Below are positions 42,479 to 43,003 of a DNA stretch of 60,215 nt, piece after piece (the stretch's first letter is position 1; every line of letters begins with the position of its first letter). This stretch comes from Pseudomonadota bacterium (GTDB taxonomy: Bacteria > Bdellovibrionota > FAC87 > UBA2466): NCBI GenBank assembly GCA_009927165.1, contig RFNO01000025.1:1-60215 (forward strand), written 5' to 3'. Below the pieces are notes generated by a model. It was given only the letters and a program-made list of their open reading frames with translations, was not told the origin of the DNA and ran no database searches. The translations under genes were made by a program, and so were the position numbers.

Positions 42479-42928
42479 TCACAATTGGGAGGGAGCAGTC
42501 AGACCGTGAATTAAAATCCGCTCCTCATCGCGAAAGAGGACTAAAATTTTTCCATTGTTTTTCACTTCTTCAACAATACCCACACCAAATTTTGAGTGAG
42601 AAATAACATCTCCAAGCTGAAACAATTCTTGAGTGCGATAAGTTTTAAGCGGCGTCTGTTTTTTTGCAGCTATTTTCTGTTCCCAATATTCGGAGTTTTT
42701 TACAAACGTGCGAGGAGCCCGTTCACGTTTGCCCCCTCCGGAACTAGCAGACTTTGGTTGGCTATCCCCGCTTAAACGATATTTGTGCTCACTTTTGCAG
42801 GTTTTGCAGATAACTTTTACTGGCTTTCCCGCCAAAATAGCCACAATAACATGTGCAAGATCCCGCTTGCACTTCCCGCAAAAGGCTAAAATATCCCCGC
42901 CTACTTTTACCGGACCATATAAATCCAT
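42479..42928 (-). CDS. Zinc-ribbon protein with a C-terminal PcrA/CarD-like beta domain
   Basis: The N-terminal half of this roughly 149-residue protein has a four-Cys ribbon (C20, C23, C44, C47 counted from a GTG three codons upstream; ATG at 42928 used here). A basic, Ser/Gly/Lys/Arg-rich linker follows. The C-terminal 50 residues (LGDVISHSKFGVGIVEEVKNN, then VLFRDEERILIHG) resemble the Tudor-like C-terminal domain of UvrD/PcrA and parts of CarD, which bind RNA polymerase. Nucleic-acid or polymerase binding is inferred. The gene stands alone. Confidence 0.7.
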   Translation of the reverse strand: MDLYGPVKVGGDILAFCGKCKRDLAHVIVAILAGKPVKVICKTCKSEHKYRLSGDSQPKSASSGGGKRERAPRTFVKNSEYWEQKIAAKKQTPLKTYRTQELFQLGDVISHSKFGVGIVEEVKNNGKILVLFRDEERILIHGLTAPSQL

Positions 42929-43003
42929 GGTTTTCACTCTCCAAACAATGATGTTATTCTATATCAAAGGGGCATTGAACAGGAGTTAAAATACCGACTC
43001 TTT

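Follow-up and report, generated by a model that had tools for sequence, protein, structure and literature searches.

What might the polymerase-docking domain of a repair helicase do in a small protein that has no helicase? The question is raised by a short gene in a Bdellovibrionota contig (RFNO01000025.1), of which the whole stretch of 60,215 nucleotides was analysed (hereafter the window). We describe the gene and the two halves of its product, and then weigh what its conserved residues and its neighbours suggest about its role.

The gene and its start

The ORF at 42479-42937 (reverse strand) was confirmed by ORF analysis of the sequence and, together with an alignment of relatives, bears out an earlier sequence-only reading of this DNA, which had described a zinc ribbon, a linker, and a Tudor-like domain in one protein. 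The GTG start of that reading (to 42937) appears to be three codons too long: the ATG at 42928 sits three codons inside it, and is likely the true start, since a GGAGAG sequence that overlaps the GTG codon lies 8 nt before this ATG, and since the first start at this place in two same-genus relatives (L001 and L005) is ATG. The features of the gene are:

42479..42928, reverse strand: gene of the zinc-ribbon/UvrD-type Tudor protein, 149 aa from the ATG at 42928 (ORF, relatives, ribosome-binding site)
42937..42942, reverse strand: GGAGAG, probable ribosome-binding site, 8 nt before the ATG (read by eye)
42779..42895, reverse strand: predicted zinc ribbon, residues 12-50, with C17, C20, C41, and C44 (alignment of relatives and 115 members)
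42641..42778, reverse strand: variable basic linker, residues 51-96, with the conserved aromatic W82 (alignment, 115 members)
42500..42628, reverse strand: predicted UvrD/PcrA-type Tudor-like domain, residues 101-143 (profile comparison, residue map, conservation, weak structure match)
within 42500..42628, reverse strand: H111, F114, R137, and L139, the putative polymerase-binding positions of the Tudor-like domain (residue map)

A Pfam and NCBIfam search of the window protein gave no model at its cut-off, and no SF1 helicase core was found by Pfam in its 149 residues.

Distribution of the family

A single-sequence search identified the family in 40 of 59 relatives, and a 21-sequence profile identified it in 249 of the 290 sampled genomes of the phylum (205 of the 222 that are at least 90% complete and at most 5% contaminated); the conservation in Bdellovibrionota that had been proposed as a check was thus found. 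Among 20 listed of the 41 genomes without a match, 14 belong to the bacterial families f3, f4, f5, f11, and f14, and the other six to f7, f8, f9, f10, and f12. For residue counts we used 115 non-redundant members, derived from 176 matching ORFs (116 distinct full-length sequences and the window protein, thinned at 97% identity); the full-length filter requires both ends of the domain pair, so the set consists of complete copies, with truncated or divergent ones outside it.

An exact short-pattern scan of genome contigs, which says little on other phyla, returned two loci (one in a Bdellovibrio metagenome assembly, the other in an uncultured Oligoflexia bacterium). We also considered a mobile origin and rejected it: there is no convincing relative in phage and plasmid records (best E-value 3), and none of 25 pattern matches in viral contigs was confirmed. 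A literature search by title and start of abstract, with subscription papers mostly outside its reach, found no description of the family. The kind of domain is already known; as far as these searches show, the architecture, its phylum-wide conservation, and the linkage to uvrC described below are undescribed.

The zinc ribbon and the linker

The two knuckles, C17-x2-C20 and C41-x2-C44, are invariant among 21 aligned relatives, and cysteine is found at the four positions in 114, 112, 115, and 114 of the 115 members, respectively (three members have glutamate in place of C20), which upholds the four-cysteine ribbon of the sequence-only reading and suggests that the N-terminal half binds zinc. 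No Pfam ribbon model reached its cut-off on the window protein (Zn_ribbon_TOP3B scored 18.5 bits, cut-off 27); the best E-value of any Pfam ribbon model among the 21 members was 7.3e-6, and Zn_ribbon_Elf1 matched one f27 member at 2.6e-4, below its cut-off. Structure prediction and fold search gave nothing usable for the ribbon. In two f7 members (L178 and L179), the first knuckle reads CTRE or CTKE rather than CxxC, which may abolish or alter zinc binding in these proteins.

The linker had been called basic. It is basic, and rich in serine, alanine, and glycine, in the window protein; elsewhere it is variable and ends in a conserved stretch. The position of W82 is aromatic in 113 of the 115 members (W in 87, Y in 19, F in seven), Y97 is kept in 112, and a low-confidence structure model places a helix at residues 79-87.

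A Tudor domain of the UvrD kind

Single Pfam models do not decide which Tudor-like domain the C-terminal half is: on the window protein, PcrA_UvrD_tudor (PF21196) scored 15.0 bits (cut-off 23.9) and CarD_TRCF_RID (PF02559) 14.9 bits (cut-off 23), and the UvrD of the same genome (L211 in G000) itself reaches only 13.5 bits with PF21196. Profile-profile comparison, the HHpred-type check that had been proposed, favours UvrD: the Tudor half matched UvrD Tudors with a probability of 97.6% (E 3e-12, 36 columns), versus 79.9% for CarD and 61.3% for Mfd; the Mfd and CarD profiles match each other at 96.5%. The UvrD-Tudor HMM matched 78 of the 115 members at E<1e-3, whereas the Mfd and CarD HMMs matched none at that threshold; in controls, the UvrD-Tudor HMM reported none of 115 reversed sequences, and none of 1150 shuffled ones at E<1e-3. 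These profile comparisons place the Tudor half with UvrD/PcrA and not with CarD/Mfd, so that of the earlier label "PcrA/CarD-like" we retain the first part, to which the polymerase-binding positions (below) also speak, and drop the second.

The family profile also picks seven long ORFs (748-783 aa) at E-values of 2e-5 to 3.5e-4; Pfam identifies those in G007 and G018 as UvrD helicases, and the remaining five are taken as UvrD by their size. Against the PDB, it matched the E. coli UvrD domain at E 0.08, which is weak alone. Two structure models were of low confidence (mean pLDDT 37 and 45); the second has strands at residues 108-111, 115-122, 127-132, and 135-140. The first four hits in a fold search with this low-confidence model were UvrD/PcrA Tudors (7egs, 5dma, 9dqs, and 7egt; Z from 6.1 to 5.5), with domains of PHF1, CarD, and NusG no more than one Z unit behind, a tie by the tool's own standard; because both structure predictions are of low confidence, we use this search as corroboration only.

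Other proteins of the phylum carry related domains. In a second kind (f6, f12, f18, f21, and f27), a Lys/Ala-rich, histone-H1-like N-terminal tail of about 57-300 aa precedes a distant version of the Tudor domain; its gene adjoins tex at each of the 12 loci examined (L195-L198, L200, L202, L203, and L205-L209). The UvrD-Tudor HMM scores this kind weakly (best E 0.011), so its place near the UvrD Tudors is not secured; the one such protein scanned (L197) had no Pfam or NCBIfam match. In an f9 genome (G057), a 184-aa protein (L214:2288-2842, reverse strand) joins the same Tudor domain to an N-terminal domain without a Pfam or NCBIfam match, and a 78-aa ORF (L214:6632-6868, forward strand) consists of the Tudor part alone.

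Putative polymerase-binding positions and the RpoB motif

Excerpts from Sanders et al. (2017; PMC5397179) report that the PcrA substitutions H681A, W684A, K712A, and L714A each severely reduce RNA polymerase binding by the domain. In alignments with 5DMA and with the UvrDs of E. coli and of the phylum, these positions correspond to H111, F114, R137, and L139 of the window protein (the mapping profile was built with UvrD sequences included, and its E-values therefore say nothing about relationship). Histidine, phenylalanine, and leucine are found at the first, second, and fourth positions in all 115 members, and the third is lysine in 77, arginine in 37, and histidine in one; the phenylalanine at the W684 position is shared with E. 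coli UvrD.

The docking site on RpoB is described, in excerpts from another paper (PMC8318588), as a helicase interaction motif with a TGE triad. We observed the TGE motif in all 19 RpoB sequences examined, including that of the window's own genome, and in 14 of them in the strict published form (the 19 come from 19 of 20 genomes; L295, the C-terminal half of an RpoB, was left out, and G014 had no rpoB match). The proposed docking of the family protein on RNA polymerase via this motif is well grounded by analogy. A UvrD with its own Tudor-like C-terminus (L211) is present in the window's genome, so the motif is necessary for, and not discriminating of, binding by the family protein.

The strict motif was found in none of 19 UvrB sequences (from 19 of 20 genomes; L275, an Mfd match, was left out). 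In six of them the hairpin keeps the TG but has N, M, Q, T, or R where the glutamate would stand; an STGE at residue 320 of one UvrB (L273) was not counted, since in our reading it aligns with the YSRH-TG of other UvrBs and not with the hairpin. The contrast between these UvrB loci (L256-L274, 0/19 for the strict motif) and the RpoB loci (L276-L294, 19/19 for TGE) may point to a different mode of contact between UvrD and UvrB in this phylum.

We also considered that the family protein replaces the Tudor domain of UvrD, an idea that arose because PF21196 had no match in nine of ten f1 genomes, including G000. We rejected it because the UvrD of G000 (L211) retains a Tudor-like C-terminus under the Pfam cut-off. 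The family protein might instead stand in for the missing Tudor of a second helicase of 666 aa (L212), whose gene is not linked to the family gene in the window's genome.

Gene neighbourhood

We compared 80 loci from 80 matching genomes of 16 families, chosen to cover a range of families and genera; the last 60 were added after uvrC and a helicase gene had been noticed in the first 20, and the family match held in all 80. Neighbour identities come mostly from BLAST clusters (E 1e-12, coverage over 50%), with a few tested individually. Negative intergenic gaps reflect start codons picked too early, and the ORF picker can miss genes (for example, the uvrB of G089, missed in L168, is nevertheless located there).

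The most widely shared neighbour is uvrC, found in 41 of the 80 loci and eight of the 16 families; it is always upstream and divergent, and in 38 loci it is the next gene, usually no more than about 110 bp away. The four of these 41 genes that were checked individually all encode UvrC (494-523 bits, cut-off 285). Between linked families, UvrC sequences (39 compared) share as little as 31% identity while the pair persists, indicating that the pairing is of long standing. Another 31 counts, spread over six families, concern loci with a uracil-DNA-glycosylase-like gene nearby (of four candidates tested, three reached the Pfam cut-off and one fell below it), and uvrB is near in ten loci of four families (ten rather than 11, since an f6 cluster member in L173, of 282 aa and 5.7 kb away, was left out). 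All ten f6 loci have a helicase gene immediately downstream, in the same orientation and 0-102 bp away; the one tested (in L173) is UvrD/Rep-like, scores below the equivalog cut-offs, and has no Tudor match.

At least one of these four repair-type neighbours is present in 52 of the 80 loci, where chance would give about 0.4 in 80 per gene (14-kb stretches, genomes near 3 Mb), a figure to be read with the loci being related by descent. The other 28 loci have none of the four: 13 in f1, one in f2, three each in f7, f10, and f12, one each in f15 and f26, and three in linked families. All 13 loci of f1, the window's own family, are thus without a repair-type neighbour; the window's neighbours of the gene are an alpha/beta hydrolase, a TlpA-kind redoxin, a PAP2 protein, quinolinate phosphoribosyltransferase (nadC), and a nadB-kind FAD protein. 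An RpoB tree (17 sequences, midpoint-rooted) joins f1, f15, f12, and f6, and places f9, f24, f20, f8, f16, and f13 outside; with the linked loci related by descent, uvrC may have become linked in a single old event and the f6 helicase in another.

Several other neighbours were observed. A Cys-rich protein of 70-80 aa is encoded between uvrC and the uracil-DNA-glycosylase-like gene in two loci (L104:9394-9606 and L170:9111-9353, both reverse strand); that of L104 scores 21.5 bits with Lar_restr_allev (cut-off 28.6), and that of L170 has no match. An uncharacterised protein of about 290-316 aa adjoins the gene in 13 loci of f6, f12, and f26 (for example L087, L102, L105, L172, L173, and L177; L173:7029-7904 has no Pfam match), and a fumarase-like gene is close by in 11 loci of the same three families.

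Proposed role and alternatives

Bacterial transcription-coupled repair is credited to Mfd and, more contentiously, to UvrD. The reading that we consider best, with a probability of roughly 50%, is that the family protein is a helicase-free adaptor, tethered to RNA polymerase and serving DNA repair. Its C-terminal UvrD-type Tudor domain would dock on the exposed TGE hairpin (the helicase interaction motif) of the polymerase beta subunit, much as the PcrA/UvrD Tudor domain does, while the zinc ribbon and basic linker would hold DNA or a repair partner near the polymerase, so that the adaptor could serve excision repair where DNA is transcribed. The excision-repair role is suggested by the genes linked to it in part of the phylum: uvrC, uvrB, the uracil-DNA-glycosylase-like gene, and, in f6, the UvrD/Rep-type helicase. 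The ribbon would contact DNA or a repair protein. The transcription- or repair-coupled factor of the sequence-only reading is thus favoured by the retained binding positions and the 52 loci near repair or helicase genes, and finds no echo in the 13 unlinked loci of f1. A more specific version, which we put forward tentatively and would not bet on, makes the protein one more factor, in addition to Mfd and UvrD, that couples transcription to repair, delivering UvrC (or, in one family, the UvrD/Rep-like helicase) to RNA polymerase via the TGE motif, with the histone-H1-like-tail kind as a parallel beside Tex.

The unlinked loci also fit a general transcription (elongation) factor, with the Tudor domain on the polymerase, the ribbon on DNA or nascent RNA, and the nearness of repair genes a matter of inherited gene order. 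The absence of repair neighbours from the window's family and six further families, and the position of the sister Tudor kind next to the transcription-associated gene tex in all 12 of its loci examined, point that way; two different repair-type linkages (uvrC in eight families, a UvrD/Rep-like helicase in f6) and a uvrC pair that outlasts divergence of UvrC to 31% identity do not, and we regard it as unlikely, if a serious contender. Rather lower we place a competitor of UvrD, a protein that occupies the RpoB motif, and keeps UvrD off or frees it for repair, without itself recruiting repair proteins. The family protein shares its binding positions with UvrD, and a Tudor-bearing UvrD is present in the same genome, and excerpts from PMC8318588 show that such competition is possible, since RNA polymerase and UvrB compete there for one Tudor site; competition alone, however, leaves the conserved zinc ribbon and the uvrC linkage unexplained.

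A further alternative gives the Tudor domain a different docking partner: UvrB, or some other repair protein, in place of RNA polymerase. A UvrB-bound UvrD Tudor (7egt) is among the best structural matches of the low-confidence model and uvrB is near in ten of 80 loci, yet the RpoB motif is present in 19 of 19 sequences and the strict motif in no UvrB; UvrB is thus disfavoured as the docking partner, and this reading is improbable. Membership in the CarD/CdnL- or Mfd-type polymerase-binding proteins is hardly credible, being disfavoured by the profile and HMM comparisons: CarD_TRCF_RID matches nine of 21 members (best E 0.0021), but the window protein lies below its cut-off, the Mfd and CarD HMMs match none of the 115 members (E<1e-3), only a few residues follow the Tudor domain, and the same genomes have other CarD_TRCF_RID proteins.

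Comparison with known systems

In the elongation complex of archaea and eukaryotes, Spt4/Spt5 and Elf1 bring a zinc ribbon and an SH3-like barrel to RNA polymerase; we draw this as an analogy only and claim no family relation, the ribbon and barrel there belonging to two proteins and here to one. DUF3553 (PF12073) is a short Tudor-like module that a relative with a Lys-rich N-terminus (L204) matches at E 0.018, below the cut-off; its model does not include a zinc ribbon, and the window protein has no DUF3553 match.

The RID of Mfd (TRCF) and the N-terminal domain of CarD/CdnL (PF02559) are likewise Tudor-like and polymerase-binding, and have some of the H-x-x-[FYH]-G-x-G signature in common with the family. 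In CarD/CdnL, a second, C-terminal DNA-binding domain follows the Tudor-like domain. The family has a clearly weaker profile match to these proteins than to UvrD, and neither the CarD C-terminal domain nor a translocase; the window protein ends eight residues after H141, with no second domain behind the Tudor.

Closest is the PcrA/UvrD Tudor domain (PF21196; PDB 5DMA, 7EGS, and 6YI2), with which the family has profile similarity and the four polymerase-binding positions in common. In contrast to PcrA/UvrD, the family protein has no helicase, is joined to a zinc ribbon, has a shorter final part and usually a shorter loop before the fourth strand, and, in the window, scores below the Pfam cut-off. 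These likenesses and differences suggest that the docking domain of UvrD is a reusable module, and the family offers a test of whether docking on the TGE motif of RpoB alone brings in repair.
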